Of a stretch of DNA of 64,000 nt, positions 45,121-62,083 are shown piece by piece (the stretch's first letter is position 1; each line of letters begins with the position of its first letter). A program made the position numbers and the translations under genes. Below the pieces are notes generated by a model. It was not told the DNA's origin and did not search any database. It saw only the letters and a program-made list of their open reading frames with translations. The DNA comes from Chthoniobacteraceae bacterium (GTDB taxonomy: Bacteria; Verrucomicrobiota; Verrucomicrobiia; Chthoniobacterales; Chthoniobacteraceae): the NCBI GenBank assembly GCA_028293625.1, contig JAQGOL010000034.1, positions 62,001 through 126,000 of the forward strand. The letters run 5' to 3'.

Positions 45121-48100
45121 TTATTTCCCGCTCTGAAGGTAAGCGTCGATGTCTTTGACCACCACCAGCTTGCCCCACATGATTGGCCAGTGGCCGGGGA
45201 ATGTGCAGACATACTCATACTCGCCTTCCTTGGACGGCGTGGTCAGCTGAAGTTTTTCCTGTTGCCCCGCTTCCACCAGCTTGCTGGCGGCCAACACTTT
45301 CTCTCCGCCGGATGGCACGTAAGCGCGCCCCTTGTTGTCGAATTGATCAGGCTTGTTGGTTTGAACCGATTCGGCCACCGCCTGCCGGGTGCCTGGCTGC
45401 ACAAACACCAGGTTGTGTGGCATGAAGTCCGGGTTCTCGAAGATGATCTCAATCGGTTTGCCCGCTTCCACCACCAGGCGGGGCGTGTCGTAGCGCATTT
45501 GCTCGCGCACGGTCTTGATCACATAAACGTTTACACCAAGTTCGCGCAGGCTCTTGCGGGCGGCATTTGCTTTTTCAAGGGGAAGCAACGCGGCAAGTTC
45601 GGTCGCCACCTGCACCGTTTCGATGTAATCCTGCGAGGTGCGGCTCGTGGCGGGAACTTCACCTGCCCACTTTGTCAACGCACCGACCGCCGTTTCGGCG
45701 AACGCCTTATTCCACGCGGTCCTCGGCAATTGCATGATCGCCTGTGCCGCGCTGCTCAATTCTTCGTTCCGGCCGATCAAATCAACCAGCGAAGCAAAGA
45801 CTGTTTCCGGCTCTTTCCCGGTGCTCACAATCGCGCGGATCGCAGCACGCCGCAAAGCTCCGGCCGGGTCACCCTGAAACTCAAATCGGCTCGATACTTT
45901 CGGCGCTGGATTTGCGGCTTTCTTAAAGATCGGCCGGCGGTTGGAATCGAGCACGGTAAGATCGAACCCTTCGAGCCGGGAAATATAAGTGCCGTTGGCT
46001 TCGGTCCGATTCCAAATGGCAATGGCGTCAATGGGTTGATCCTTTTTCAAATCGAGCTCCCACCACGGATGATCTTCGTTTTCAACCGAATGGGTTTGCG
46101 TGCCCGATCCGTAGGCGCCGTTTGTATCGCCATCAACGGCGCGTTTTGCCTCGCCACTGTTTGAGGTGCTCGACTGCCTGGCTTCTCCCTTGGAAGCGAT
46201 GTTTTTTCCGTCGCTGAAGACCTCGACCTCAGCCAGGGTCAAAGTGCCTTTGCGAGGCAGCTCGATCCGGATATAGCGGCCGGTTGAGGCACTCTTATCC
46301 TTGAGCGCGGTCTCAATCGCGGGAGGGAAACTGCCAAGAAGCGGCTTCACTTTTTCATACGCGGTCGCGCGCAGGGCGGGATCCGGCACGCGTGCAAGCG
46401 AGTTTAATAACTCAGTCAGCGTGACAGGCGATTTGACTGCCTCCACCCATGCCGTATCAATCGTCCCATCGGCCACGATCAACGCCGCGCGCGCGCTTTG
46501 GCGAACCGCTTCGGATGCCTGGCCCAAAGCGAGCTTGGCCAGCCGGTCCCGAACCGCTTTAAGATCGACCGCCGGTTGGATCAGCATCAACCGGGCAAGA
46601 TCGCCGGACGCCTTGCCATCCTTTGAGGCGATTGGCTCCAATCCAGCCAGCAACGTGGCGGCACCGGTTGATTTGTTCAGGGTCGAAAGTTCTCCGAGAG
46701 CCGTGAGACGTTGTACGTCGGGCGCGTCGGAACGTGTCAGCATCGCCATATAGACACCGGGCGTTTTAGGCAATTTCTCCAGGTCCGCCGTGCTGACGCT
46801 ACCCAAAATAAAGTTGATCCCGGCCGGATTATCGGAGGCAAGCGGTGCGCCCGCATTGATCGCTTTTTTCCACCACGGCTCAAGCTGCTTCATCGTCTCG
46901 CCCAGGCAGTAGTCGATGTAATAGTCAGTCGGCTGTTTTAAGGCGACAAGCGCGGCATCCGCGGCTTCCCATTGCTCAAAGTAACTCGCGGCACGGACCG
47001 CTTCCAGGCGGATCCGGGGACTCTCATCTCCGGCCTGCACTTTTAGCAAAGCGAGTGCCTCAGGCACACGATCACGCTGATAACAAAGGACGCGGGTTGC
47101 CGCGGCCCGGGCATGATAATCGGGCGAGCGAAGCATTTTCTTCAACAAGCCGGCGTCGACGATGTTGTGATATTGCTTAACCCAGAGCGCCTCGGTGAGG
47201 TTGTGCTCATAGTTCTTCTCGGTCTTATCGAGCCCTGCTACCCATTGATCCACGGCTGCGATCACTTCGGCCGTGTCGCGTCCGCCGAGTTCAATCTTGG
47301 CGCGTTCGCGGGTGTTATCCTCGGGCTCTTTAAGTAGATCAAGCAGACTGGCCAGCGGCGCGCCGTCGATCTTTGGCGGCGTTAAAAGCGGCATCCCTTC
47401 ATAAGTCATCCGATAGATCCGGCCATGATCCTGGTCCCGGTTCGGGTCGCGCAGATGATGCTGCATATGCCCAATCAGCGGCTTGTGCCAGTCCATGAAA
47501 TAAACCGCCCCTTCAGGACCCACATTCACACCGGATGGACGGAAGTTGGGGTCATCCGAGGTCACCAGGTTTTCAAGAGTCTCGCCTTTTAAGCCGGAAC
47601 CGTCTTCGCTGAGTTTAACCCGGAAGATTCCCTGGATGCTAATGACGTTGCAGTTAAGGAAATTGCCGTTGAACTCCGCGGGCCAGGCCCGGCTTGAAAG
47701 CAGGCCCGTGCCGGCGCAAGGCCGCGATGGACGATTCCAGAAGTCCTTCAAGCTCGCGTGCTTGCCGTTATCAAGACGGCCGCTGAATGCCGGCCCGAAG
47801 TAGTTCTGATTGCCCGTGGCGTCGGTGATCAGATCGTTGCCCCAGTAGTCAAAAACACGTCCGTGCGGGTTGGCGAAGTTATAAGAAACATAACGCTCAA
47901 ACTTACCCGTGCGCGGCTCGTAGCGGTAAATGGCACCATCGCTATTGCGCACCGGGCCGTCCGCGGTTTCGACCGCGGTGCGATGGAAGACTCCGTCGCT
48001 GCAATAGATGGCGCCGCCGGGTTCAATCGCCATTGAGTTCGTCTCATGATGGGAATCAGCCGCGGAAAGTCCGTTTAAGACACGTTCCTTGGTATGCGTT

Positions 48101-49488
48101 TTCCCAAAAATGTCATGAACCCACCAGAGGTCCGGGGACTCCATCACGAGCACGCCGCCTTTGTAGAACTGAAATCCTGTCGGGCAATTAAGGCCGCCAA
48201 GAAACGTCGTGCATTTGTCGGCCTTCCCGTCGGCATTGGTATCTTCAAGCACAATCAGGCTGTCGCCTTCCTTGCTCCACGGTGTGCGCTCCGGGTAATT
48301 GCGCCACGCGGAAACCCATAACCGCCCTTTGGTATCCCACGCCATCTGGACTGGGTTGACCAGCTCGGGAAACTCTTTCTCACTGGCAAACAACTGCACC
48401 TTCACCCCCTGGGGCACTTTCATATGCTTGATCGCTTCCTCGCCGTCCAGGAATGTATGCGAACCGTCGGGATTAGCGCCCGGCTTGTTCGTTTTCACCT
48501 CCGTGACCGGCGGCACGTTGGAATCGTCCACCTTCAGATCGCCGCCCTTGGCCAGTGCCCAAATGCGTTTGTCGCGGTTGGCCGTCATGACATCGCGCAC
48601 AGCCATCTCTTCCTGCATCACCTTGAAGTTGGTGATTTGTCCGCCGCCTTTGCCCGACTGATAGCTCAGGCTCGAGCGTCCGCCGTAGACGTTGTAACCA
48701 TCGACTGTCCGGTACCGGCTGAACCACATCTCGTTCTTTTCCTCAACCGCGGCGCGGATTTTACTAAGCGCCGCATCGGACACCGGGGCGTCCGCGCCAA
48801 AAACCTTCTTGTAAATGAGCGGCGCCATCAGCGTGTAGCCCGCTTCAGTCAGATGGATGCCATTAAAAGTAAGCGGGGTTTTCGCCGTTTTATAAAGCTC
48901 CTGGGAGATGGCGAAAAGGTCGACAAACTGGACATCGTTGGCTTTGGCAACTTCAGCCATCGCCGCCGTGTAGTTTTGCAGATTGGTGTTGTTCTTGTCC
49001 GGATTGGGCAGCGCCGGATCCGGCATCTTCTCCTGCGCGATCGGAGAAAAGAGCACCAGCCGTGGCGCCCCTTTGCCACTGAAGTTCGCTTTCCTCGATT
49101 CCTTGATCGTTTTATCGAGCTCGGCCTTGAACTTCTCAATCCCATCGTAACCGGCGAATGATTCGTTAAATCCAAAAAACGCGAACACCACATCGGCCTG
49201 AACCCGTGTCAGCCACTCCTCCGGAGTGCCGAAGCTTTCCGAGCGCAAGCGAAGCGTTACTTCATCAGCCGCGACGGCGAGGTTGCGAAAAATAAGGTCC
49301 TCGGCCGCGAATTTCTGATGCACCAAGGCCTCAAATGTCCCCTCGTGCTGCATGCGGTCGGCCAGCGCGTTGCCGATGATGGCGATGTGATCCCCTTTTT
49401 TAAGCTCCAACTTTTCGGGAGCAGCCGCCAGCAGCGTGGAAGGAAGCGCCACGGCGCACAAAATGGATGAAAAAAGGATCGGTTTCAT
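45121..49488 (-). CDS. Giant secreted protein: SGNH-like, dehydrogenase propeller, HEAT, discoidin and azurin-like copper domain
   Basis: A 1,455-residue exported protein (signal peptide ending near LLAAA). Residues about 25-245 form an SGNH-like domain (GDHIAIIGNALADRM, FFGFNESFAG, FNGIHLTEAGY) in which the usual Ser of GDS and Asp of DxxH are missing. Residues about 345-695 match the PVC 'membrane-bound dehydrogenase' propeller (PVQMAWDTKGRLWVSAW, GRVFDYWGNDLITDATGN). HEAT-like repeats follow to about 1060. An F5/8C domain lies at about 1066-1195 (RYIRIELPRKGTLTLAEV, HPWWELDLKKDQPIDAIAI). The last 130 residues are azurin-like: His in MPHNLVF, then CTFPGHWPIM. No CxxCH haem site. A paralogue is the gene just upstream. 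Probable periplasmic redox enzyme with copper as electron carrier. Confidence 0.85.
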   Translation of the reverse strand: MKPILFSSILCAVALPSTLLAAAPEKLELKKGDHIAIIGNALADRMQHEGTFEALVHQKFAAEDLIFRNLAVAADEVTLRLRSESFGTPEEWLTRVQADVVFAFFGFNESFAGYDGIEKFKAELDKTIKESRKANFSGKGAPRLVLFSPIAQEKMPDPALPNPDKNNTNLQNYTAAMAEVAKANDVQFVDLFAISQELYKTAKTPLTFNGIHLTEAGYTLMAPLIYKKVFGADAPVSDAALSKIRAAVEEKNEMWFSRYRTVDGYNVYGGRSSLSYQSGKGGGQITNFKVMQEEMAVRDVMTANRDKRIWALAKGGDLKVDDSNVPPVTEVKTNKPGANPDGSHTFLDGEEAIKHMKVPQGVKVQLFASEKEFPELVNPVQMAWDTKGRLWVSAWRNYPERTPWSKEGDSLIVLEDTNADGKADKCTTFLGGLNCPTGFQFYKGGVLVMESPDLWWVHDIFGKTHTKERVLNGLSAADSHHETNSMAIEPGGAIYCSDGVFHRTAVETADGPVRNSDGAIYRYEPRTGKFERYVSYNFANPHGRVFDYWGNDLITDATGNQNYFGPAFSGRLDNGKHASLKDFWNRPSRPCAGTGLLSSRAWPAEFNGNFLNCNVISIQGIFRVKLSEDGSGLKGETLENLVTSDDPNFRPSGVNVGPEGAVYFMDWHKPLIGHMQHHLRDPNRDQDHGRIYRMTYEGMPLLTPPKIDGAPLASLLDLLKEPEDNTRERAKIELGGRDTAEVIAAVDQWVAGLDKTEKNYEHNLTEALWVKQYHNIVDAGLLKKMLRSPDYHARAAATRVLCYQRDRVPEALALLKVQAGDESPRIRLEAVRAASYFEQWEAADAALVALKQPTDYYIDYCLGETMKQLEPWWKKAINAGAPLASDNPAGINFILGSVSTADLEKLPKTPGVYMAMLTRSDAPDVQRLTALGELSTLNKSTGAATLLAGLEPIASKDGKASGDLARLMLIQPAVDLKAVRDRLAKLALGQASEAVRQSARAALIVADGTIDTAWVEAVKSPVTLTELLNSLARVPDPALRATAYEKVKPLLGSFPPAIETALKDKSASTGRYIRIELPRKGTLTLAEVEVFSDGKNIASKGEARQSSTSNSGEAKRAVDGDTNGAYGSGTQTHSVENEDHPWWELDLKKDQPIDAIAIWNRTEANGTYISRLEGFDLTVLDSNRRPIFKKAANPAPKVSSRFEFQGDPAGALRRAAIRAIVSTGKEPETVFASLVDLIGRNEELSSAAQAIMQLPRTAWNKAFAETAVGALTKWAGEVPATSRTSQDYIETVQVATELAALLPLEKANAARKSLRELGVNVYVIKTVREQMRYDTPRLVVEAGKPIEIIFENPDFMPHNLVFVQPGTRQAVAESVQTNKPDQFDNKGRAYVPSGGEKVLAASKLVEAGQQEKLQLTTPSKEGEYEYVCTFPGHWPIMWGKLVVVKDIDAYLQSGK

Positions 49489-49620
49489 AAGAGGGAGACT
49501 CGGGTAGATGATAAACTCGCGGCCTTCGCGCTTCTTTGGAAGAAATGACGTTCATCGTCTCAGCGGTCCATGTTCCAAGCCTGCGCCCTGGAAGATCTCC
49601 GCCTTTCAGTGCAAAAAAAA

Positions 49621-49657
49621 GCGCGGCCCCGGACCGATAACAGGTCCGAGACCGCGC
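49621..49657 (-). terminator. Intrinsic terminator after the first giant gene
   Basis: A stem GCGCGGCCCCGGACC with GGTCCGAGACCGCGC (two mismatched or bulged positions, 7-nt loop GATAACA), followed on the minus strand by eight T residues (A-run at 49613-49620). It lies 22 nt beyond the stop of the gene at 49680-53606, so transcription from the upstream genes likely ends here before the paralogue. Confidence 0.85.
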
Positions 49658-49679
49658 GTTGAATCTTCAGAGGATTGAC

Positions 49680-52600
49680 TTACTTCGCGGCGCCATCGGG
49701 ATGGGCCTGCAGATAGGCTTCGACATCCTTGGTGACAATTAATTGGCCGAACATCAGTACCGAGTGTCCGGGGAAAGTGCAGACGTATTCATAATCGCCT
49801 TCCGTTTTCGGAGCATTGAGCTTGAGGACTTCCTTTTGGCCGGCCTCAATGAGCTTGGAAGCATCAAGCACGCGTTTGTCCTTGGCCGGGATATAAGCGC
49901 GGCCTTCTTTGTCCAGCGCATCCGGTTTCATCGTTTGCGCGGCTTCCGCTACACTCTGCCGGCTCCCTGGTTCCACAAAGACGAGGTTATGCGGCATCAT
50001 GTCGACATTCTCGAAGATGACTTCAAACGGTTTGCCGGCTTCAACCACCATCCGGGGCGTGTCATACCGCATCTGCTCGCGGACTGTTTTCACCGAGAAG
50101 ATGCTCACCCCGAGTCCGCGCAGTTCTTTCTTTATGCGGAGCGAATCGGCGGCAGGCAGCAAGGACGCCAGCTCCGTGCCGGCCTTTACCGTCTCCACAA
50201 AATCCTGCGCGCTGCGCTTGTCGCCCGGCACTCTCCTGGCCCATGCCAGGATACTCTCGGCAACCGGAGCCGCTAAGGCAGCGTCCCAGCTATCGCGCGG
50301 CAACTGGATAATGGCGCGCGCGGCCGCGGTTCGATCGTTCCCGCCGCGAATCGCGGCGGCAAGAACAGGGAAGTTGGCCTTCGCATTTTCGGCGCCCATC
50401 AAAGGGAGCGCTTTGAGCGCGGAAGCACGCACGCTGCCGGTCACGCCCGCATCGGCGAGAGTGGCGCTAAGAAGCGGCTGAAATTTGGCGCGAGCAGCCG
50501 GATCAGGCAGAGTCGCCAGGGCGTCAATCAGGTTCTGTCGTGCGGAATCGCTTTTTGCATCCGCCCATGTTATCTGCGGGTTGGCGTCGGCCAGCACCAG
50601 GGAGCTCCACGCAGCGCGTCGGACGCCGCTTTGGGACGCCTTGTCAGCCAGCGCCGTTAATGCTGCGCGCGATGCCGCGAGCTCTTTTGGTTCAGAACCC
50701 GCCAGGATTTTTCCAAGCTCATCGGCAGCCGTGTTGCCGCCTGCATCGGCACGTTGCAGAGCCGCAACCAGCTCGGTGACTCGGTTGCTTTTGCGAAGTT
50801 TGGCAAGATCGCTGAGCGCCTTATCGCGGCCAAGCATGTCGGTCCCCTTGCGTTCAAGCCGTGCCACGAGCACTGCTTCCACGGCAGGCGCCTTGCTTAG
50901 CTCGCTGTCGGACATCTTTTCAATGAGCGCCCCAAGTAGTTGCGGGTCGGTGGGCAGAATGGTCGTTTTTGAGAGCGACTGCAGCTGCTTCAATGTCTCC
51001 TTGAAGGTATAATCAAGGTAATAATCGCTCGGCTGCTTGAGTGTCGTATACGCGACATCAATAGCCGCCGGAACATCGGCGCCAGTAAAAAAGCTGGCCG
51101 CGCGGACTGCTTCCAACCTGACACGGGGACTCTCGTCGGCAGCCTGCACTTTCAGCAATGCGAGCGCTTCAGGCACGCGATCCCGCTGATAACAAAGCAC
51201 GCGGGTCGCAGCGAAACGGGCATGGTAATCAGGCGATTGAAGCATCCGCTTTAATAAGACCGGATCGACTACGTTATGGTATTGCTTAACCCACAACGCC
51301 TCGGTGAGGTGATGCTCGTAAGCCTTCTCAGACTTATCGAGTTTGGCCACCCACGCATCCAACGCCGCCATCACTTTGGCTGTTTCGCGTCCACCGAGCT
51401 CCACCTTGGCGCGCTCGCGCACGTTGTTCTCGGGCTCTTTTAACAGATCAAGCAGGTTCTCGACCGGTTCACCCGCGATCCTGGCCGGCTTGAGAAGCGG
51501 CATTCCTTCATACGTCAGCCGATAAATCCGGCCATGCCCATGGTCGCGGTTCGGATCGCGCAAATGATGCTGCAAATGTCCGATGATCGCGTTGGACCAA
51601 TCCATGAAATAAACAGCGCCATCGGGCCCGACACTGACACCGGAAGGCCGGAAGTTTGGATCATCCGAAGTCACCAGGTTTTCGAGTGTCTCGCCTTTAA
51701 TACCCGAGCCCTCCTCACTCAGCTTCACGCGGAAGATGCCTTGGATGCTGATGACGTTGCAGTTCAAAAAGTTATTGTTGAACTCCTCGGGCCACGCGCG
51801 GCTGGAAAGAATGTTGGTGCCAGCGCATGGACGCGACGGCCGGCGCCAGAACTCGTTCAAGTTAGGATGTTTGCCGGGGGCATCAATATGGCCGCTAAAC
51901 GCCGGGCCGAAGTAGTTGGCGTTACCGGTCGCATCGGTAATCAGATCGTTGCCCCAGTAGTCAAATACGCGTCCGTGCGGGTTGGCGAAGCCATACGGCA
52001 CATAGCGTTCGAACTTCGCCGTGCGCGGTTCCCAGCGAAAGATCGCGCCATCGGCATTCCGCACGACGCCATTGGCCGTCTCAACCTCGGTGCGATGGAA
52101 TACACCATCGCTCAGGTAGATCGCTCCCCCGGGTTCAATCGCCATGGAGTTGGTCTCATGATGCGAATCCGCCGCGGAAAGCCCGCTGAGCACACGCTCC
52201 TTGGCGTCCCCTTTGCCGTCGCCATCGGTATCGCGCGAAAACCAAAGGTCCGGCGACTCCATCACCACGACGCCGTCCTTGTAGAACTGGAAACCGGTCG
52301 GGCAGTTCAAGCCCTCCAGATAAGGGGTGCACTTGTCGGCTTTGCCGTCGTTATTGGCATCCTCGAAAATAAGAAGCTTGTCGCCGACCGTGCTGGTGGG
52401 AGTCCGGGAAGGATAGTTTTTCCAAGCTGAAACCCAAAGGCGTCCCTTGGTATCCCAGTTCATCTGCACAGGATTTACCAAATCGGGAAACTCCGCCTCG
52501 CTTGCATAAAGCTCAACCTTTACTCCCTTTGGCACGGTCATGTGCTTGATTGCTTCTTCCCCGCTTAGGTAAGTAAACGAAGCATCGGGCTTGTCGCCGG

Positions 52601-53606
52601 GTTTGTTACTCTGAACCTCGCGCACCGGCGGGATGTTGGAATCATCAATCCTGAGGTCGCCGCCCTTGGCAACGGCCCAAACCCGCTTTTCGCGGTTCTC
52701 AGTCATGACATCGCGCTGGGCGAGTTCTTCCTCCATGACATCGGCGTTGGTCAGCTTCGACGCATCCTTGGCGGCCCCTTGCGCATAAGGGATATGTCCT
52801 CGCTGGCCGGTGATATTATAACCATCGACCGTGCGGTACCGGCTAAACCACATCTCGTTCCGCTCCTGCACGGCGGCTCGAAGCGTGGCAAGAGACGCGT
52901 CCTCGGCCGGGGCATCAGCGCCAAAAAGCGCCTTGAAAATAACCGGGGCGAGTTGTTTGTAACCTTCCATCGTGAGATGGATGCCGTTGAAAGTAAGCGG
53001 CTCTTTGGCTTCCTTGTATAGCTTTTGGGAAAGTGTGAATAGATCGACAAACTGCACGTCGTTTGCCTTGGCTACCTCGGCCATCGCCGTTGTGTAGTTC
53101 TGGAGGTTGGTATTGTTCTTCTCCGGATCAGGCATGTTCACATCCGCCATCTTTTCCTGCGCGATGGGGGAAAAAAGCACCAGGCGCGGCGCCGATTTGC
53201 CATTAAAACTCGCCGCCTTCGCGGTGCTGATCAGCTTGGTGAGATCAGCCTTGAACTTCTCGATGCCATCATATCCGGCAAAGGATTCGTTAAACCCGAA
53301 GAACTCCAGAACAACATCCGCTTTTACTTTCGTCAGCCATTGCTCGGGCGTGCCGAAGCCGTCCAGGCGCGGGCGGGTAACAATTTCATCGCCTGAGAAA
53401 CTTAGGTTGCGAAATACAAGGTCGTGCTCGGCGAAGCTCTTATGGATAAGCGCTTCAAGAGTTCCCTCATGCTGCATCCGATCCGCCAGCGTATTGCCGA
53501 TGATCGCGATATGATCTCCTTTTTGAAGATCGAGTTTCTGAGGAGGCGCGGCGTGCAGCGGCACCGAGAGGGCGTAGATGAGGGAGGTGAGAATGACAGG
53601 TTTCAT
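49680..53606 (-). CDS. Giant secreted protein: SGNH-like, dehydrogenase propeller, HEAT and azurin-like copper domain
   Basis: A 1,308-residue paralogue of the gene at 45121-49488, without the F5/8C domain. A signal peptide (ILTSLIYALSVPLHA) precedes an SGNH-like domain with the same missing Ser and Asp (IAIIGNTLADRM, FNGIHLTMEGY). The propeller (GRLWVSAWKNYPSRTPTSTV, GRVFDYWGNDLITDATGN) is followed by HEAT repeats. The C-terminal 135 residues contain a full blue-copper set: His in MPHNLVF and CTFPGHSVLM, almost the azurin loop CTFPGHSALM. It lies 20 nt after the MoxR gene and is the last gene before a terminator. Electron acceptor role for the copper domain is inferred. Confidence 0.86.
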   Translation of the reverse strand: MKPVILTSLIYALSVPLHAAPPQKLDLQKGDHIAIIGNTLADRMQHEGTLEALIHKSFAEHDLVFRNLSFSGDEIVTRPRLDGFGTPEQWLTKVKADVVLEFFGFNESFAGYDGIEKFKADLTKLISTAKAASFNGKSAPRLVLFSPIAQEKMADVNMPDPEKNNTNLQNYTTAMAEVAKANDVQFVDLFTLSQKLYKEAKEPLTFNGIHLTMEGYKQLAPVIFKALFGADAPAEDASLATLRAAVQERNEMWFSRYRTVDGYNITGQRGHIPYAQGAAKDASKLTNADVMEEELAQRDVMTENREKRVWAVAKGGDLRIDDSNIPPVREVQSNKPGDKPDASFTYLSGEEAIKHMTVPKGVKVELYASEAEFPDLVNPVQMNWDTKGRLWVSAWKNYPSRTPTSTVGDKLLIFEDANNDGKADKCTPYLEGLNCPTGFQFYKDGVVVMESPDLWFSRDTDGDGKGDAKERVLSGLSAADSHHETNSMAIEPGGAIYLSDGVFHRTEVETANGVVRNADGAIFRWEPRTAKFERYVPYGFANPHGRVFDYWGNDLITDATGNANYFGPAFSGHIDAPGKHPNLNEFWRRPSRPCAGTNILSSRAWPEEFNNNFLNCNVISIQGIFRVKLSEEGSGIKGETLENLVTSDDPNFRPSGVSVGPDGAVYFMDWSNAIIGHLQHHLRDPNRDHGHGRIYRLTYEGMPLLKPARIAGEPVENLLDLLKEPENNVRERAKVELGGRETAKVMAALDAWVAKLDKSEKAYEHHLTEALWVKQYHNVVDPVLLKRMLQSPDYHARFAATRVLCYQRDRVPEALALLKVQAADESPRVRLEAVRAASFFTGADVPAAIDVAYTTLKQPSDYYLDYTFKETLKQLQSLSKTTILPTDPQLLGALIEKMSDSELSKAPAVEAVLVARLERKGTDMLGRDKALSDLAKLRKSNRVTELVAALQRADAGGNTAADELGKILAGSEPKELAASRAALTALADKASQSGVRRAAWSSLVLADANPQITWADAKSDSARQNLIDALATLPDPAARAKFQPLLSATLADAGVTGSVRASALKALPLMGAENAKANFPVLAAAIRGGNDRTAAARAIIQLPRDSWDAALAAPVAESILAWARRVPGDKRSAQDFVETVKAGTELASLLPAADSLRIKKELRGLGVSIFSVKTVREQMRYDTPRMVVEAGKPFEVIFENVDMMPHNLVFVEPGSRQSVAEAAQTMKPDALDKEGRAYIPAKDKRVLDASKLIEAGQKEVLKLNAPKTEGDYEYVCTFPGHSVLMFGQLIVTKDVEAYLQAHPDGAAK

Positions 53607-53626: not shown

Positions 53627-54970
53627 CTAGTAATCTTTTTCACCGGGCTCCTCGACAGCTTCGAGGAGTTTTTTCACAATTTTATCCGTGTCCATCCCTT
53701 CGGAGTCGGCAGTAAAATTAGTGAACATGCGATGCCGCAAAACCGGGCGCGCGATGGCACGGACATCGTCGGTCGTGACAAGCAGCCGGCCATCAATGAC
53801 GGCACGCGCCTTTGCCGCAAGCAAGAGGTTCTGGCAGGCTCGCGGACCGGCTCCGCAGTGAATCCATTTTTTGATAAACTCCGGCGCGCGCGCATCGCCA
53901 GGCCGGGTGGCGCGCACCAGGCGGACGGCATATTTGATAATGTGATCGCTTACCGGCAGTTCGCGAACCACTTCCTGGAGTTCAATGATCTGCGCGGCGT
54001 TAAGAACCTTGTTCAGCGGCTTCGGCTGGCCTGAGGTGGTCACACGCGCGATAACCTCCTCTTCCTCCTCGGTTGGGTAGTCGATATAGACGCTGAACAT
54101 GAACCGGTCGAGCTGCGCTTCCGGAAGCGGATAGGTCCCTTCCTGCTCAAGCGGGTTCTGCGTCGCCAGCACAAAAAAGGGCGGCTCAAGATCGAAGCTC
54201 TGGCCCGACGCGGTCACCCGGTATTCCTGCATGGCTTCCAACAAGGCGGCCTGCGTCTTGGGAGGCGTCCGGTTGATTTCATCAGCAAGGAGGATCTGGG
54301 AAAAAATCGGGCCTTTGATGAATCGGTATTCCTTTTTGCCGGTCTGCTCGTCGACTTCAAGAATGTCGGTGCCGGTGATGTCGCTTGGCATCAGGTCGGG
54401 CGTAAACTGGATTCGGCGAAACTTCAGGTCGAGCACTTTGGAAATGGTGCTTACCAGCGCGGTCTTTGCCAAACCCGGCATCCCAATCAAAAGGACGTGT
54501 CCGCGGGAGATAATCGCGGTGAGCACCTCGCGGATAATCTCGTGCTGTCCGACGATGACCTTGCCGATTTCTTTCTCAATCAGCCGGGTCCGCTGGCTCA
54601 TTTGTTGAATAAGCGCCACGACTTCAGGTGAACTTGGCGGAACAAAAGCGCCTTTTCCCGTTTCAACCGACGCGATCGGCATGTCGTCCTCGAAAATGAA
54701 GACCGAATCGCCAATGACAATCTCGTCTCCGTGCCCGAGCCGTGTGTCGCTGACCCGGGCGCCATTGAGTTCGGTCCCATTGACGCTGCCGAGGTCTTCA
54801 ATCTGCCAGAAATTCCCCAGAGGTTTGATGGAAGCGTGACGGCGCGAAGCGGGTGATTCGATATTAAGCGGGATATCGCTTGCCGGATCGCGGCCGATGA
54901 TCATCGCGCGTCGTTCGAGAGGAAAAACACTCCCCTCATTAAAGCCAAGTTTGACGCGGATCTGAGCCAT
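53627..54970 (-). CDS. FHA domain-MoxR family AAA+ ATPase fusion
   Basis: A 447-residue protein. Residues 1-95 are a forkhead-associated (phosphothreonine-binding) domain (MIIGRDPASDIPL, SPASRRHASI, LGSVNGTELNGARV). Residues about 130-430 are a MoxR-type AAA+ domain: Walker A region GMPGLAKTALV, Walker B LADEINRTPPKTQAALLEAM and the sensor AIARPVLRHRMF. MoxR ATPases act as chaperones that insert metals or build complexes, usually beside VWA and DUF58 genes; no such partners are found here. Fusion to FHA suggests recruitment by protein phosphorylation. It sits 45 nt from the upstream gene and 20 nt from the giant gene it may help mature. Confidence 0.93.
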   Translation of the reverse strand: MAQIRVKLGFNEGSVFPLERRAMIIGRDPASDIPLNIESPASRRHASIKPLGNFWQIEDLGSVNGTELNGARVSDTRLGHGDEIVIGDSVFIFEDDMPIASVETGKGAFVPPSSPEVVALIQQMSQRTRLIEKEIGKVIVGQHEIIREVLTAIISRGHVLLIGMPGLAKTALVSTISKVLDLKFRRIQFTPDLMPSDITGTDILEVDEQTGKKEYRFIKGPIFSQILLADEINRTPPKTQAALLEAMQEYRVTASGQSFDLEPPFFVLATQNPLEQEGTYPLPEAQLDRFMFSVYIDYPTEEEEEVIARVTTSGQPKPLNKVLNAAQIIELQEVVRELPVSDHIIKYAVRLVRATRPGDARAPEFIKKWIHCGAGPRACQNLLLAAKARAVIDGRLLVTTDDVRAIARPVLRHRMFTNFTADSEGMDTDKIVKKLLEAVEEPGEKDY

Positions 54971-55015
54971 TCTGGAAGGGGTGATAAGGGAGGGAACGCC
55001 TGAACGGAGTGGCGA

Positions 55016-55723
55016 TTACTTGGGGAGTGGCAGATTGCCGAGCTCTTTGAGGGTGTCAATCACTCTCACACCGCCCAGCCCGGCCACGAACTGAGATCCA
55101 AGGAACGCCATCCCATCGCCCAGCGGCGCTTCCTCGCGGTAAATGTGGCGCGTGGTCACCTCCGTCCAGTCGTCGGCTGCTCTTTCGAAATCGATGATCT
55201 CCAGACGGCGCAGGTTCGATTTCAGCTGATCGCCGGACTGCTGAAAAATCAGCTTATCGCGAATCCGTTCAACAAAAAGCAGCGCTTTCTCGCCGTCCTC
55301 AAACAGTCCGAACCGGTGGATCCTGACCCTGTTAAAGAACGTGTCGGCCGCCGCCACCCGTTTCTCGAAATTTTTCAAGGAGACACCGGTCAGTTTATCC
55401 GCGTCAGCGCCCAGTTCGACCCCTTCAAATACGCGGCCGCTCATGGTGACGAGCACCAGATCGTATTTGCCGGTCGGCAATCCGGTGAACCGGATCGATT
55501 TACCGCCTTCCGAGAGTTGCGCCCGAAAGCAGCGGAGCCGGTCTCGATTGAGGGCGAGCGCATGGGTTAGCGGCTGATCGACCCGGGCCGAAATACCGCC
55601 TGCCGCCTGGGCCACGGGCGCCGTGTAAAGATGCGTGGTTTGCGCACTAAGCCGACTGCAGAGGAAGAGCGCCGCTATTTGAAGAACCGAGTGCAAACCG
55701 GATCGGAGGTTTGTGAATGTCAT
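55016..55723 (-). CDS. Secreted hypothetical protein of the FHA-MoxR gene series
   Basis: A protein of 235 residues from the ATG at 55723, chosen because it forms an ATGA overlap with the TPR gene upstream; an ATG at 55735 is the alternative. It has a signal peptide (LHSVLQIAALFLCSRLSA). The mature part contains a carboxypeptidase-regulatory-like strand pattern (IRFTGLPTGKYDLVLVTMSG) and a helical second half rich in charged residues (RIRDKLIFQQSGDQLKSNLR). No family recognised. Its packing between the TPR and MoxR genes suggests a shared complex. Confidence 0.75.
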   Translation of the reverse strand: MTFTNLRSGLHSVLQIAALFLCSRLSAQTTHLYTAPVAQAAGGISARVDQPLTHALALNRDRLRCFRAQLSEGGKSIRFTGLPTGKYDLVLVTMSGRVFEGVELGADADKLTGVSLKNFEKRVAAADTFFNRVRIHRFGLFEDGEKALLFVERIRDKLIFQQSGDQLKSNLRRLEIIDFERAADDWTEVTTRHIYREEAPLGDGMAFLGSQFVAGLGGVRVIDTLKELGNLPLPK

Positions 55724-57780
55724 TGGCGCGCCCATTTCTCGGCTTCGGGGGTAAGTTCGTGCCTGGGATATTTGACAACCATTTCCTCCCAGATCTTGTG
55801 CGCCTCGTCCTTTTTCCCAAGTTCGAAGAGTGCGCGAGCCCGATAAAAATCGGCGGGAATCTGAAAGGGACTATCGGGATTGATCCGGAGATAGGAATCG
55901 ATCTCCATTAACGCCTCGTTCCAGCGTCCGTAAAGCATCAGGACCCTGGCGCGCAGGAGCAGGAAATCGCTCTCGAATTTACCCATCGGATGTTCAAGTT
56001 CCCATTCGGCAAGCTTGGCGAGCGATTCCTGGCGGTAGCCTTGGGAAATCAAATCGGCGATCGTGATGGAAAAGCTGCGATCCTGCGCGGCAAACTTTCG
56101 GCCCTTTGTCTCGTCTTCAATCGTCTTTTGCACCCCACGATATTGGGCGGCCGATTCTTTTGCCCGGCCTAGCAAACGATACAGGTCGCCGACACGGATA
56201 CTGGCCAGCCGCGCAGGTTCACCGGTGGGATTCTCGGCAATCATCCGGCTCGCCAGCTGCACGGCGCCGGCATCTTTCAGATAAAAGACCTGGAGTTCCA
56301 ACTCGAACATCGCGAGTTCGGCCGCGTATTTTTTCCGAGCGGCAAGATCGATTTTGCGCAATTCGGCCAGCGCCTCCCGAGGATTGCCCTGCGCAAGGGC
56401 TCGCAGCCGGGCGAGCTGCGCTTTAAGCCAGAGCGGATCGTCGGCGCCGGGATTTTTAGCGAGCCACGCGAATGCCCATTTCCCGAGCTGCTGATCATTG
56501 CCAAATTCGGCCAGGAACGGAAGGGTCGCCCCGAGCCGTTCCCTCGGCAGTTTTTCCGGCTCTTCGCGATTCAACAGATCGAGATACCGGGCGAGATCCA
56601 CCGGATTAACGGTCTCAGCCTGGCGGGGCGGCGCGCCGCCAAAGGTCACTTTCGTGAGGCCGCGTACCTCGCCTTTCGCGCTTTTAAGCCGGATCACGAC
56701 CTGGACTGGCGTTGGTCCCGGGAGGATCCGCTCGCACTTTTCCCCGGCAACCACGGCGCCGTCGTTCCATTCCCAGGTTGCCGTCCAACCTGCGGGGAGC
56801 GGATCGCCTTTTAAAACCGCATGCGCCTCATAGAGCCAAAGGCCGTTCCAACCGATGTAGCTCTGGAACGATATGTCTGCCTGCGGCACCGGCCAGCCCT
56901 GGATATGCTCGATCCGCTGCAATTCGGCTATCCCCGGATGCGCCCACGCCGTGGCGGGAATCGTGACAGGTTTTTCGTCCCTGAGCCAGCCAAGCAACAT
57001 CGCCGGTTCGGAGTCACCGATTTTCGCGTGGTAATAATCAACCCGCACACCGGCCAGCGGCATCGCGATTTCCTTGCGCATTGCGGTTTTTGCATTGGCA
57101 ACGGCGTTATGCTGTCCGGGCCAGCCGAACTCATATTTCTCGCCGACAAGCACGAACGAAGCGTCGGAGGAAAGAGTGTAAAGCACCGGCTTTTTCTGCT
57201 CCGACTTGAGCCAGCCTGTGTAATGGGAAATGAAGTTGGCGCTGTCGCCAAATGGGTTAACGCCGTGATCGATTGCGTCGACGAATCCTGCGCCGTCCAC
57301 TTCCTTCGCGGATTTCCACGCGGTTTCAAAGCTCTTCCAATCGGCGAGCTTTGTCCCGGCCGGGAGACGCCGTGTTTCAAGCAACAGGCTGGTTTTGGAG
57401 AACCACGGTGTCGTACGGCGATGTAGGTTGCCGCCGTAATAGACATAACACTCCTGGCCGGCTGGAAGCTTTTGGGCAAGCAGCAGCAACCGCTGCCCTT
57501 CGCCCCGCCAAACTTTGCTCACGGCAAGATCTTTTCCCGCCGCATCGAGCATGATCACATCGCCCATTCCCGGCATCGATTGGCCAAGTTCAGGGAGATC
57601 GATTAACAAACCAAATTCCGGGGCCGAGGGCTGATCCTTCATTTTCACCACCGCGCGAATCGGCGCATCGGGCACGGCCCAGGGTGCTCCGGCGCAGAAC
57701 ACGGTGTGTGCGAGTGCAAGCAGTGCTCCGAACGCCGCCACGGTTCGCGGCGCGCCATCGCGTATTCCAAGCCTCGTCAT
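55720..57780 (-). CDS. Secreted TPR protein with beta-rich N-terminus
   Basis: A 686-residue protein with a signal peptide ending near VFCAGA. The first 400 residues are beta-rich; CYVYYGG and the PAGTKLADWKSFETAW region resemble DUF2341-like 'YYG' segments, with a further domain of the PKD-like kind (ATWEWNDGAVVAGEKCE). The C-terminal third has tetratricopeptide-type helices (RVGDLYRLLGRAKESAAQYR, RALFELGKKDEAHKIWEEMV), consistent with protein-protein contacts. ATGA overlaps join it to the DUF4175-like gene upstream and the secreted gene downstream, so the three are co-translated. Confidence 0.8.
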   Translation of the reverse strand: MTRLGIRDGAPRTVAAFGALLALAHTVFCAGAPWAVPDAPIRAVVKMKDQPSAPEFGLLIDLPELGQSMPGMGDVIMLDAAGKDLAVSKVWRGEGQRLLLLAQKLPAGQECYVYYGGNLHRRTTPWFSKTSLLLETRRLPAGTKLADWKSFETAWKSAKEVDGAGFVDAIDHGVNPFGDSANFISHYTGWLKSEQKKPVLYTLSSDASFVLVGEKYEFGWPGQHNAVANAKTAMRKEIAMPLAGVRVDYYHAKIGDSEPAMLLGWLRDEKPVTIPATAWAHPGIAELQRIEHIQGWPVPQADISFQSYIGWNGLWLYEAHAVLKGDPLPAGWTATWEWNDGAVVAGEKCERILPGPTPVQVVIRLKSAKGEVRGLTKVTFGGAPPRQAETVNPVDLARYLDLLNREEPEKLPRERLGATLPFLAEFGNDQQLGKWAFAWLAKNPGADDPLWLKAQLARLRALAQGNPREALAELRKIDLAARKKYAAELAMFELELQVFYLKDAGAVQLASRMIAENPTGEPARLASIRVGDLYRLLGRAKESAAQYRGVQKTIEDETKGRKFAAQDRSFSITIADLISQGYRQESLAKLAEWELEHPMGKFESDFLLLRARVLMLYGRWNEALMEIDSYLRINPDSPFQIPADFYRARALFELGKKDEAHKIWEEMVVKYPRHELTPEAEKWARQ

Positions 57781-60700
57781 TTCTCTTCAACAAGCGCTCG
57801 GAAATAGTCGGCGACCATTTCCTTATACTGGACTGGCGCATCCCCGTCCTGGCCGCCAAGGAGCTGTTTATCTTGGATACGCGCCGAATCGTTCATCGGG
57901 AAACTAACAACCTCCCCATTGGCGACCCCGCTCTTGATCTCACGCAAACGGCCGATGATTTTCTGGTGCAATCCTTGCGAATCGCGCATACGGCCCTCTT
58001 TCAACGCGAGCTGGTTTTCGTCCATGAGCCGGGACACCTGGGCAAGCCGGTCGCTGCGCATATAAAGCAGGCTGGCCTGTCCGACCGCCCTGGCGGTTTT
58101 CTCCGCGAGCATCGCCTGTTTGACAGCTAGCGCGCTGGCCGCGGGATTTGGCGGTGCTTTCACCGCCCGCAACGGCGCGTTGCCTTCCATTCCCTGGCGA
58201 TCGCTGAATCCGCCGGCTTTGCCGCCGCCCGTCGCTTTTGTTTCGCCAATGCCGCCATCGTCTTTGACCTGCCCCTGTTGAAGCGGATCTTTTGTCCGGC
58301 GCGCATCCACTTTATCTCCCTTAAGATTGCTCGCCTCCCCTCCGGCCATTTCGCCATCGCTCATACCCTCGCGGCCACCACTTGAACGGCCCATCTGCTC
58401 GTTGTGATTCGGCTTCTCGTTGCCCGACTTTCCCTGGGCGCCGAACCCGGGTTGCGGACCGTCCATGATCTCCCAGCCATTGGCCGGGTTCATCGCGAAC
58501 GCTTGATTGGAAGCGGCATCCTGATTATCGAGTTCCTGCTGCGCATCGAGCAGATCGCCGACGATATCCTCCATCGCGTCCGCCAGCGGCAGATTGGGAA
58601 TATCAGGCATCTCGGTTTTATCAAAATTCTCGAGAAGCCACTTGGCGGTCTCGGTGTGGTTGGGCAGAAACATTTCCATGTCAGCGGCGATCTTTTTGGC
58701 GGCTTCAATCGCATCGAGAATCCCCTGCTCTTTTTGCACGGCGAACTCGGTCGGTTTGAGTTTGCCGGCGGCCACATCCTGTTTGTCGGTCTGTTGGACA
58801 TCCTCGAAGATGCTCACCAGTTCCGCTTTCATCTCGTTGCCGGGTTTCATGTCCGGAAACGCGTGCATATCCGTGGTCATCTGCTCGATGACTTCTTTCA
58901 TCAAATCCTTCTGCTCTTGGATCTCGGTGGCGGTCGCAATGTCCTCGGCCCGGAACTCGTTCTTGCGAGCCATATCCCTGGTCTTCTCAATGATCTCGCG
59001 CTGGATCTCCGCGATCTTATCAAGCCGCCCCTTGATCTCCTCGGCTTCCTTTTTTAACTCCTTCGCCTTCTCCTCCGCCTCGGCCACCTGCCATTGATTA
59101 AGCAGTTCCACCATCCTGGAAAGATTCGCGATCACACGCTGCTGGACCTGCACGGCAGGCGCCACTTTTTGTGTCTGCAAATGCTCAGCCGCGGTGAGCA
59201 TCTCCTCGTAAACCTTTAGGCTGGTGAACATGCCCGAGATTCTCCCGAGCCGCTGACGGAACGCTTCATCGCCAATCGTCGCGTTTTTGCTGTCGGCTTC
59301 GATCCCTTTTTTCACAACGGCCGCCTTGTCCGCAAGCGCATCCTGCTGAGTGGCAAGGGCGGGTGCTTTCCCGACAACGAGTCCGGTCGATTCTTTGTGC
59401 AGGATGCGCTGCCGCTTAAGCAGATCTTCAAGACCTGAGATAAGATCGGCGACCTGGCCTTTTTTTGTCTCCTCGGCCGCGGCAATTGGCGAGCCGTGCA
59501 ACCGTGCCAGGATCATCGTTTCAAGCGCCACCGCACCATTGAGAAATTGAGTGCGACTGTCGGGGGCGGCTGCATTGCGCAAAGCCAGCACGGCGTCTTT
59601 CATCTCTTTATTAATGAGCGCCCGGATGTCGTTGCGCACATCGGGGGAAATGCCATCGGCCGCCGCCACGATGAGCCGGGCGGACTCGGCGATTTCGATC
59701 TGCCGCTCCAGAAGCGGCGTGACGGCTCCCTGTTTTGTCAGGGCAACCTTGGATTGATCCAGGTTGAGTTCCTGAAGCTTAATGAGCGCTTCAAGCGTTT
59801 TCTGCAATTTCAACGCCGCGTCATCGACCTGCTTTTCGAGTTTCTCGGTTGACTTAAGCGAAACCACGATCGGTCTCGATATACCGATGCCCGGCCCGGT
59901 GACATCGTTTTTGTCCTTTGCAATGACCCGGAAAGTAACGCGCTCCTCGCGGGCAAACGACTTCAGCGAAATCAGCGCGCTCGCTTCAAACGATTTTTTC
60001 CCATCCGCATCGCTCCATGCCTGAATCAGCCTGGCATCTTCTTTTTCATTCGAACTCTGATAGAGCGCCACGGAACCAAGTCCGTAAAGATCGGTAACCG
60101 TAAATTGAATTGTCAGGGTCGCATCCCAGGTCGCCACCAGATCCCGTCCTTCACCCGGCTGGCTAATCGTGATTTTCGGCGGCTCATCGACTTTAACCGC
60201 GATCTGCACCGGGGCGGTATCGGCCGTGCCAAGCGTGTCGGTAAAATCGAGCTTGAGGGTCTGGTTGGTGAAAACTCTTGAAACGCTCTTCCAACGGCTT
60301 TTGCTGATTTCCTCAACCGTGACGGGGGCGGCGTGTTCAGCGGCGGCTTTGAAAGCCGCCAGCTCGTTATTAAACTCAAATGTCATCTCCACGGTCGAAC
60401 CGGGAATCACGTTTTGAAGAACGCTGAAATCGGCAAACTCGACCGGAACCAGTCCCGTATAACCAGGCGGCGTGATTCGCGCTGTGCGCGTTTTGATGGC
60501 CGTCCTTGGACGCACTTCAAGCCGTTGGACGGAAGAGAAGGCGTCTCCCGCCTCGATATAATATTCCGTCGATTGCCGCACCTCTTTCCATTTAAGGCCA
60601 AACAACGGCTGGCCGGCTTCTCGATCCATGAGCGCTTTCTGCCAACTCGAACCGGCTTCCCGATAATGAATCCAGGCCGAGGCCGGCAAATCGCCGCCAA

Positions 60701-61337
60701 GCGTTGCCGAAATCAATACGTCCCGTCCGCGCACGACTGTGTCGTTCCCTGGAATGATCGACTCGATCCTGGTGCGGGTCAGTGGCGCGATGTTGCCTGC
60801 CGGGAAAAAAATGCGCGCGGCTGAATTGGCGAAATAATCCGGTTTAAAAATTGCCCATCCGGTCAGACCGGCGACGACAGCCGCAAGGACAATCGCGAGT
60901 TTTTTCAGGAGGCACGAATCAAAAACCAGCTCCCATTTGACGTTGGGAAAAGGGTCGCGCATTTCGCTGAAAATGGCGCTTCGAAGAGGTGAATCGATCG
61001 GCAGCGATTTTTCAAATTGCACGGCGCTGATCAGCACGTTGCCCGAGCCGCTGCATGCCGCCTCGATCCGCCGCGCCAATGCCTCCTCGGAGATTTTCTT
61101 TTTCCAACTCCGCAATCCCAGGCCAAAACCGCTGGCAAGAGAGGTGACAATCAGAATCAGTCCCGCCCAGCGGCCGGTCCGCTCAAAATGCACCCACGCG
61201 TCGAGAGTGAGGAAAAGGATGACGAAAAAAAGCGAAAGCGCGGCACCGGCAATAAAAAATCGCGCACTCCGCGCCCAACGAAACTTTCGGGCGGTCGATT
61301 GAAGCCGCTCGTGAATGGCCTGGGAGGTAATCGGCAT
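57777..61337 (-). CDS. DUF4175-like membrane protein with coiled coil
   Basis: A 1,186-residue protein. The N-terminus has two close membrane helices (FFIAGAALSLFFVILFLTLD, AGLILIVTSLASGFGLGL) and a third near 150 (LAIVLAAVVAGLTGWAIF). An extracytoplasmic beta-sandwich region follows (about 170-480), then a long Glu/Lys/Ala-rich coiled coil (about 500-930) and a Gly/Asp-rich, probably disordered tail (GGREGMSDGEMAGGEAS). This is the plan of DUF4175-like proteins often found near MoxR ATPases. It may be the membrane platform for the complex. The stop overlaps the next start as ATGA and the CBM-like gene lies 47 nt upstream. Confidence 0.85.
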   Translation of the reverse strand: MPITSQAIHERLQSTARKFRWARSARFFIAGAALSLFFVILFLTLDAWVHFERTGRWAGLILIVTSLASGFGLGLRSWKKKISEEALARRIEAACSGSGNVLISAVQFEKSLPIDSPLRSAIFSEMRDPFPNVKWELVFDSCLLKKLAIVLAAVVAGLTGWAIFKPDYFANSAARIFFPAGNIAPLTRTRIESIIPGNDTVVRGRDVLISATLGGDLPASAWIHYREAGSSWQKALMDREAGQPLFGLKWKEVRQSTEYYIEAGDAFSSVQRLEVRPRTAIKTRTARITPPGYTGLVPVEFADFSVLQNVIPGSTVEMTFEFNNELAAFKAAAEHAAPVTVEEISKSRWKSVSRVFTNQTLKLDFTDTLGTADTAPVQIAVKVDEPPKITISQPGEGRDLVATWDATLTIQFTVTDLYGLGSVALYQSSNEKEDARLIQAWSDADGKKSFEASALISLKSFAREERVTFRVIAKDKNDVTGPGIGISRPIVVSLKSTEKLEKQVDDAALKLQKTLEALIKLQELNLDQSKVALTKQGAVTPLLERQIEIAESARLIVAAADGISPDVRNDIRALINKEMKDAVLALRNAAAPDSRTQFLNGAVALETMILARLHGSPIAAAEETKKGQVADLISGLEDLLKRQRILHKESTGLVVGKAPALATQQDALADKAAVVKKGIEADSKNATIGDEAFRQRLGRISGMFTSLKVYEEMLTAAEHLQTQKVAPAVQVQQRVIANLSRMVELLNQWQVAEAEEKAKELKKEAEEIKGRLDKIAEIQREIIEKTRDMARKNEFRAEDIATATEIQEQKDLMKEVIEQMTTDMHAFPDMKPGNEMKAELVSIFEDVQQTDKQDVAAGKLKPTEFAVQKEQGILDAIEAAKKIAADMEMFLPNHTETAKWLLENFDKTEMPDIPNLPLADAMEDIVGDLLDAQQELDNQDAASNQAFAMNPANGWEIMDGPQPGFGAQGKSGNEKPNHNEQMGRSSGGREGMSDGEMAGGEASNLKGDKVDARRTKDPLQQGQVKDDGGIGETKATGGGKAGGFSDRQGMEGNAPLRAVKAPPNPAASALAVKQAMLAEKTARAVGQASLLYMRSDRLAQVSRLMDENQLALKEGRMRDSQGLHQKIIGRLREIKSGVANGEVVSFPMNDSARIQDKQLLGGQDGDAPVQYKEMVADYFRALVEEK

Positions 61338-61384
61338 GGGCGGGGCTTCCTGCTTACTTATACGCTCGCTTCATTACGGTCAAA

Positions 61385-62083
61385 TCAACGTAGAATCCCT
61401 GTTTGCGGCGCCGCGACCGCGCCGGGCTCCTTGATTTTAAAAAGTTTGAAGCTGGTGAAATACGATTTGCCGGCATTGGGCGTTCCTTCGAAGCTATACG
61501 CCTTGATGGTGATATAGGCGGGTTTGACCTTTTGACCGCCGACTTTCCATTCCATCGGCACCGTGAATTCGCGGACCGTTTTCGACCATTTATTCCCTTT
61601 CGGAGGATCGGGAAATTGCGCGCGATAAATCTGGACCAGGGCCGGGTGGCCGTCTTGTTCCGGAATGCGCATGATGGTGATTTTGACCCCTTTGCTTTCG
61701 ACGTCCTTGCGCACCAGCTCGTTGCGTGGGTCGACCGCATAGACTTCCGCGTGAATTTTCACGCCAAAATCGGGCAGGAACGATTGGACCTCGGCCAAAT
61801 ACGTGGCGCCGGGCACCACCGGAACCAGTGCGGTTTCGATCTTGCCGCCTTCATTCCCGGCAATCCCGGCTGGAAGCTCGATCACGGCGCAACGTTTGCC
61901 ATCCATCGTCGTCTGCCTCACGTAGGTCACATTTTTCACATACCAATCCTGATACGGAAAATCGACTCGCCACCCTTTAAGCGGCACCGGATCCGAAAAA
62001 TCGGAGTTTGGAATGAGGTTGATTTGCTGGGCGGATGCCGAAGCGATCAGCCACATGGTCGCGATCAGGAGGGGAAATTTCAT
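61385..62083 (-). CDS. Secreted carbohydrate-binding-like protein
   Basis: A 232-residue protein with a signal peptide (PLLIATMWLIASASA). The mature start (INLIPNSDFSDPVPLKGWRV) is typical of CBM4/9/22-like jelly-roll domains, and the following strands (VPVVPGATYLAEVQSFLPDF, AYITIKAYSFEGTPNAGKSY) fit. It could bind a glycan or organise the complex. It lies 47 nt upstream of the DUF4175-like gene in the same direction and may be the first gene of the series that runs to 49680. Confidence 0.75.
   Translation of the reverse strand: MKFPLLIATMWLIASASAQQINLIPNSDFSDPVPLKGWRVDFPYQDWYVKNVTYVRQTTMDGKRCAVIELPAGIAGNEGGKIETALVPVVPGATYLAEVQSFLPDFGVKIHAEVYAVDPRNELVRKDVESKGVKITIMRIPEQDGHPALVQIYRAQFPDPPKGNKWSKTVREFTVPMEWKVGGQKVKPAYITIKAYSFEGTPNAGKSYFTSFKLFKIKEPGAVAAPQTGILR

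Follow-up and report, generated by a model that had tools for sequence, protein, structure and literature searches.

Three-domain copper nitrite reductases occur in two types, in which either a cytochrome c or a cupredoxin is tethered to the enzyme. Such tethering of the redox partner in copper nitrite reductases has been described (PMC9358711, PMC13324648). Each genome of Planctomycetes-Verrucomicrobia-Chlamydiae (PVC) bacteria encodes dozens of TIGR02604-type propeller proteins, about which next to nothing is known. The only functional report on TIGR02604/DUF7133 in the open papers searched concerns the protein Lac161_ORF7, and no description of a propeller protein ending in an azurin-like domain was found in the openly searchable literature. 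Here we analyze two genes of this kind, P0001 and P0002, found in a window of 64,000 nucleotides from a Chthoniobacteraceae bacterium (positions 62,001 to 126,000 of contig JAQGOL010000034.1). With a probability of about 0.7, each gene encodes a secreted oxidoreductase of the PVC-type propeller family that is self-contained: an azurin-like type 1 copper domain, working as a relay, has taken the position of the usual C-terminal cytochrome c.

P0002 (49680 to 53606, 1308 aa) and P0001 (45121 to 49488, 1455 aa) both start with ATG and lie on the minus strand of the window, as do all their features given below, with P0001 following P0002 head-to-tail after a gap of 191 bp. Both proteins contain, in order, an apparent signal peptide, an SGNH-fold domain, a six-bladed propeller (TIGR02604/DUF7133), a HEAT solenoid and an azurin-like domain. 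The Pfam matches of the two proteins all exceed the curated cut-offs (GDSL_2 6e-13 and 1.4e-13; DUF7133 8e-62 and 2e-69; HEAT_2 6e-9 and 4e-11; Copper-bind 2.9e-11 and 3.8e-12), and both proteins pass TIGR02604 with 187 and 209 bits (cut-off 122.2) and DUF7133 (PF23500) with 210 and 235 bits (cut-off 27). The open reading frames (ORFs) and the Pfam and NCBIfam matches therefore agree with a first-pass annotation, made from the sequence alone, which had described two tandem giant proteins combining SGNH-like, propeller, HEAT and C-terminal blue-copper domains.

The copper domain spans aa 1168-1292 of P0002 (49731 to 50105; Pfam, PDB sequence search, structure model and Foldseek) and about aa 1319-1444 of P0001 (45157 to 45534; Pfam and NCBIfam). 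By alignment, the ligands of P0002 are His1206 (49989 to 49991) and, in the loop CTFPGHSVLM (49752 to 49781), Cys1276, His1281 and Met1285, while those of P0001 are His1358 (45415 to 45417) and, in the loop CTFPGHWPIM (45178 to 45207), Cys1428, His1433 and Met1437. The His, Cys, His and Met that had been read from the translations are thus found in both proteins, and the set with its CxxxxHxxxM loop is invariant in an alignment of 63 sequences. Structure prediction had been set beforehand as the test of a cupredoxin fold, and the modelled tail of P0002 bears this fold out, with TM scores of 0.89 to auracyanin and 0.83 to azurin and a root-mean-square deviation of 1.7-2.0 over about 130 columns. 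This fold call comes from Foldseek, as the structure search with the whole model returned propeller matches only. A sequence search of the PDB gave lipid-modified azurin 3ay2 (3.8e-9), auracyanin A (6.7e-9) and azurin (about 2e-8). The azurin family TIGR02695 was matched at 41 and 46 bits in the two proteins, which is significant and below the equivalog cut-off of 105.1; on this sequence evidence the tails are azurin-like and are not filed as azurin proper. A hidden haem site was considered and rejected, in line with the first-pass annotation, which saw no CxxCH, since neither CxxCH nor the longer spacings C-x(1-16)-C-[HK] occur in P0001 or P0002; likewise, CxxCH, CxxxCH and CxxxxCH are absent from all 63 azurin-tailed relatives. 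The fused tails mostly group apart from the free-standing azurins of the phylum. The copper loops of L078, L098 and L104 read CTFPEH or CTYPEH; the Glu in place of the Gly preceding the His ligand may alter the redox potential.

The host genome (6.83 Mb, 96% complete) shows how the copper domain relates to cytochrome c. From this genome, 28 other propeller paralogues were gathered; all carry CxxCH, which never varies across their alignment, and 26 of the 28 are Pfam Cytochrom_C matches. CTFPGH in the absence of CxxCH is seen in three paralogues, namely P0001, P0002 and a 1380-aa protein on contig C21 (L043). The C-terminal CxxCH and the azurin tail are mutually exclusive, as none of the 28 and 3 paralogues has both (Fisher p 2.5e-4 for the 27 CxxCH and 3 azurin paralogues as tabulated). 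All six CTFPGH motifs of the host genome are located within or adjoining a propeller gene: three in the paralogues just named, one in L035 and two in separate genes beside a propeller gene (L036 and L073). L035 (contig C8, 5304-9287, minus strand, 1327 aa) combines a xylose-isomerase-like domain, LamG, DUF6797, a divergent propeller region and an azurin tail; this azurin-fused architecture is distinct from that of P0001 and P0002 and is also found in other genomes (L167, L169, L172 and L174). L036 (contig C33) and L073 (contig C24) are azurin genes, one of them with a PA14 domain, and each lies immediately beside a separate, short propeller gene; these gene pairs are a split version of the propeller-azurin fusion.

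The tail has changed more than once during the evolution of the family. On an unrooted tree of 42 propellers (mixture model, 200 bootstrap trees), the tail type requires at least three changes, all forced by well-supported branches, and none of the 200 bootstrap trees (0%) allows a single change. A single origin of the azurin forms, as one clade on the propeller tree, was rejected by the approximately unbiased test (AU p 0.00036), and a wider quick tree of 64 propellers agrees with multiple changes. On this unrooted tree, most forms carry a cytochrome, and the azurin forms are surrounded by them. The main azurin clade is sister to host proteins with SGNH, propeller, HEAT and cytochrome c (L039-L042), with moderate support of 92-94 for the two sister groups. 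The azurin-tailed L164 is placed among the cytochrome-tailed L045, L046 and L053; its propeller and HEAT regions are homologous to those of L046 (E 1e-166, residues 315-1087), and its azurin begins at residue 1109, where L046 has CxxCH. L173 shows the same switch relative to L050-L052. As the azurin tails of these two proteins, L164 and L173, cluster with the other fused azurins, apart from the free-standing ones, exchange of tails by domain shuffling between paralogues appears the likeliest route, over fresh fusion with a free azurin. Additionally, among the frames listed for a second genome (G223, a single contig) is a related one of 1240 aa that ends in an azurin-like domain. Both the exclusivity among paralogues and the changes on the tree uphold the claim that the copper domain occupies the place that cytochrome c has in relatives, and because of these two results azurin is best understood as replacing cytochrome c interchangeably on the propeller chassis.

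The propeller occupies aa 348-700 of P0002 (51507 to 52565; Pfam, NCBIfam, profile, model and fold matches) and about aa 350-703 of P0001 (47380 to 48441; Pfam, NCBIfam and alignment). In the structure model, which covers aa 336-1308 of P0002 (pLDDT 87.7, pTM 0.75), the propeller comprises fragment residues 13-365, followed by the helical solenoid (380-829) and the beta-barrel tail (833-957). Among enzymes, the best profile matches of the propeller are the pyrroloquinoline quinone (PQQ) sugar dehydrogenases 2g8s (Asd, 3.5e-8) and 1c9u (soluble glucose dehydrogenase, sGDH, 3.5e-6), whereas lactonases match more weakly (1.3e-3). The modelled propeller matches the PQQ sugar dehydrogenase 3a9g by fold (Z 23.1), and His144 and Asn229 of sGDH align with His483 and Asn542, which are invariant in the 63 sequences. 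Some relatives are fused to domains of oxidative sugar catabolism: a 3-keto-disaccharide hydrolase in L039, which is of the sister type, ThuA in L173, and the xylose-isomerase-like domain of L035; the LamG domain of L035 also points to sugars. L039 (contig C34, 516-4382, plus strand) unites the 3-keto-disaccharide hydrolase, SGNH, propeller, HEAT and cytochrome c in one protein, and gives a direct hint that the propeller family may act in a 3-keto-glycoside route. In Caulobacter, DUF1080/PF06439 has been proposed to hydrolyse the 3-keto-lactose made by a periplasmic lactose 3-dehydrogenase (PMC9007349). Because of the profile match and the sugar-catabolism domains fused to relatives, we favour a secreted sugar or glycoside dehydrogenase as the putative function of the propeller, perhaps one oxidising C3.

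Several observations weigh against such a dehydrogenase. By fold, SMP30/gluconolactonase hydrolases (Z 22.2) are tied with the PQQ dehydrogenases, and the position of sGDH Arg228 is occupied by Ala in 58 of the 63 sequences and by Val or Met in the rest. No pqqB above the cut-off and no pqqC match were found in the host genome, although the pqqC control gave no signal anywhere; with no genes for PQQ synthesis found, PQQ would be imported or another cofactor used. The only relative that has been assayed, the cytochrome-tailed Lac161_ORF7, is reported as a beta-galactosidase, releasing glucose from lactose with a Km of 1.8 mM (PMC5342196). The propeller might be a hydrolase or lyase, e.g., a glycosidase, and the azurin or cytochrome domain at the C-terminus might then play an accessory part, for instance by activating the substrate through transient oxidation or by sensing redox state. 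The Lac161_ORF7 activity, the fold tie and the missing PQQ genes are in its favour, but we consider this alternative unlikely, as the profile prefers PQQ sugar dehydrogenases over lactonases by the E-values above, and as a redox domain has been kept and swapped for another redox domain through at least three tail changes. Moreover, the activity report apparently did not probe an oxidation step. The favoured sugar or glycoside dehydrogenase, perhaps acting at C3, could, as speculation, explain the puzzling lactose-to-glucose activity of Lac161_ORF7.

The repeated one-for-one exchange of cytochrome c and azurin suggests that the tail is an electron relay, from which it would follow that the propeller does redox chemistry, and the propeller protein is likely an oxidoreductase. 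This also bears on the idea that the azurin domain is a copper store, a sensor or a structural remnant that passes no electrons to or from the propeller. The presence of a domain alone is no proof of its function, but this explanation is very improbable given the four invariant ligands and the replacement of cytochrome c by azurin, as the sole property common to the two is one-electron transfer. Least probable is that the propeller merely serves as a scaffold for binding, with the whole protein being a large tethered carrier, e.g., at the cell surface, whose tail takes electrons from another enzyme: the degenerate SGNH, F5/8C and HEAT regions are binding modules and the sGDH Arg228 equivalent is lost, but the His-His, Asn, Asp and Arg set of the propeller is strongly conserved in all 63 sequences.

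For the oxidoreductase with a copper relay, we infer copper occupancy, redox activity, the direction of electron flow, substrate and cofactor as follows. The propeller would oxidise its substrate, most likely a sugar or glycoside, and electrons would move singly from there to the tethered copper centre (His-Cys-His-Met), which would pass them to a diffusible carrier or a terminal oxidase. The HEAT solenoid would hold the relay domain, while carbohydrate binding or positioning of the protein would be the most likely role of the degenerate SGNH domain and of the F5/8C domain present in one subfamily. A wider generalization, which we offer tentatively and at somewhat less than even odds, is that PVC bacteria make a modular family of large extracytoplasmic sugar oxidases in which evolution can freely swap the built-in relay between a haem form (cytochrome c) and a copper form (azurin), and that each genome thereby holds parallel iron- and copper-wired versions, possibly for different metal supply or electron acceptors.

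The SGNH-like domain named in the first-pass annotation is borne out as to fold by both Pfam and the model, but it is a degenerate esterase. It covers aa 19-234 of P0002 (52905 to 53552; Pfam, model, PDB matches and block conservation), where the nucleophile Ser is replaced by Thr39 and the Asp by Asn207, and about aa 21-236 of P0001 (48781 to 49428; Pfam and block conservation), where the Ser is Ala. The modelled domain of P0002 (pLDDT 91.8) matches SGNH esterases in the PDB with Z 14-21, and its nearest folds are BT4096 (Z 21.5) and the acetylxylan esterase Axe2 (about 17.7). The nucleophile Ser is kept in only 4 of 63 sequences, the others having Gly (31), Ala (18) or Thr (10), and the Asp of the DxxH motif in 5 of 66, with Asn in the remaining 61. 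The cytochrome-tailed L040-L042 have GDTL or GDVL at the nucleophile position. Since the catalytic Ser, and usually also the Asp, is lost, the domain is probably a binding module, i.e., a carbohydrate-binding pseudo-esterase, and not an enzyme.

The HEAT solenoid extends over aa 715-1164 of P0002 (50115 to 51464; Pfam and model). In P0001, it consists of a first part at about aa 716-1090 (46219 to 47343; Pfam and alignment) and a second at about aa 1200-1310 (45559 to 45891; alignment to P0002 and relatives), with a discoidin-like F5/8C domain between them at aa 1103-1190 (45919 to 46182). Pfam finds this domain (PF22633, 3.7e-10) in P0001 and not in P0002, and its presence points to an additional binding site in one of the subfamilies. 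The paralogues had been said to differ by this domain, and the insert is indeed present in P0001 only; however, the difference does not reflect recent local divergence. The F5/8C domain is inserted at the same position within the HEAT region in 30 of 63 complete relatives, and on the family tree P0001 groups with the F5/8C clade and P0002 with the clade lacking it. A recent local duplication with gain of F5/8C was rejected on these grounds. As the F5/8C label changes about four times on the tree and the two proteins belong to different subfamilies found in many genomes, the pair is old.

When 84,980 named genomes were scanned with the azurin-like tail, 97 relatives came up, of which 80 were kept. 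Nearly all are from Verrucomicrobiota (Chthoniobacteraceae, Verrucomicrobiaceae, Opitutaceae, Pedosphaera and others), although several names of metagenome-assembled genomes (MAGs) among them are plainly loose; two are labelled Planctomycetota and may be transfers or binning errors. The search for further SGNH, propeller and azurin fusions, which had been proposed as a check, found 63 relatives that are complete single ORFs with the full architecture, and with this number of copies in other genomes the architecture is far beyond chance. A matching copper domain is present in 59 of 387 sampled genomes of the phylum, in many cases in frames longer than 800 aa. Near-identical azurin-tailed proteins of 1693 aa (L136, L146, L150 and L151) were seen in freshwater MAGs; in both L150 and L151 a propeller gene follows downstream, and in L151 a sugar isomerase-like gene precedes at a distance of 3 bp.

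At the locus itself, the putative signal peptide of P0002, assigned by eye, is aa 1-18 (MKPVILTSLIYALSVPLHAA, 53553 to 53606). An FHA-MoxR AAA+ ATPase gene (53627 to 54970, minus strand) lies 20 bp upstream of P0002, and co-transcription of the two is possible. It belongs to an unusual MoxR cluster directly upstream of the azurin-tailed pair (53627-62083, minus strand), in which genes for a TPR protein and for a 1186-aa and a 232-aa protein without Pfam match precede the ATPase gene. The MoxR neighbour was rejected as a conserved maturation partner, as the flanks of the loci of 80 relatives, many of them short, have no MoxR-like gene. No conserved operon partner occurs in more than 9 of these 80 loci, and the commonest neighbour clusters resemble non-coding antisense frames. 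A BamB/PQQ_2-type propeller protein encoded in the same region (35852-37126, minus strand) is unrelated to the TIGR02604 propellers.

The azurin tail would be a blue reporter that is easily assayed by absorbance near 600 nm, and could allow direct substrate screening for a large enzyme family. Compared with known systems, P0001 and P0002 share the propeller, HEAT region, signal peptide and a C-terminal one-electron domain with the PVC-type heme-binding CxxCH proteins (TIGR02604 propeller, HEAT and cytochrome c, e.g., Lac161_ORF7, AGW45552), and the nearest host paralogues, L039-L042, carry the SGNH domain as well. They differ in that an azurin-like copper domain takes the position of the CxxCH cytochrome, and the database name "PVC-type heme-binding CxxCH protein" is therefore wrong for the copper-tailed members. 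With the PQQ-dependent soluble sugar dehydrogenases (sGDH 1c9u, Asd 2g8s and 3a9g) they have the six-bladed propeller and the catalytic His and Asn in common, whereas Arg228 of those enzymes is mostly Ala in this family, and HEAT and copper domains are fused in addition. The tails resemble azurin and auracyanin in fold, ligand set and the CTFPGHxxxM loop, but sit at the C-terminus of a giant enzyme-like protein. The closest parallel in function is offered by the three-domain copper nitrite reductases, where a redox partner of haem or copper type is likewise fused to the enzyme. Their catalytic domain is unrelated, and they are reductases, not oxidases as proposed for P0001 and P0002; in contrast to them, the present family shows the exchange of haem and copper repeatedly within one paralogous family.

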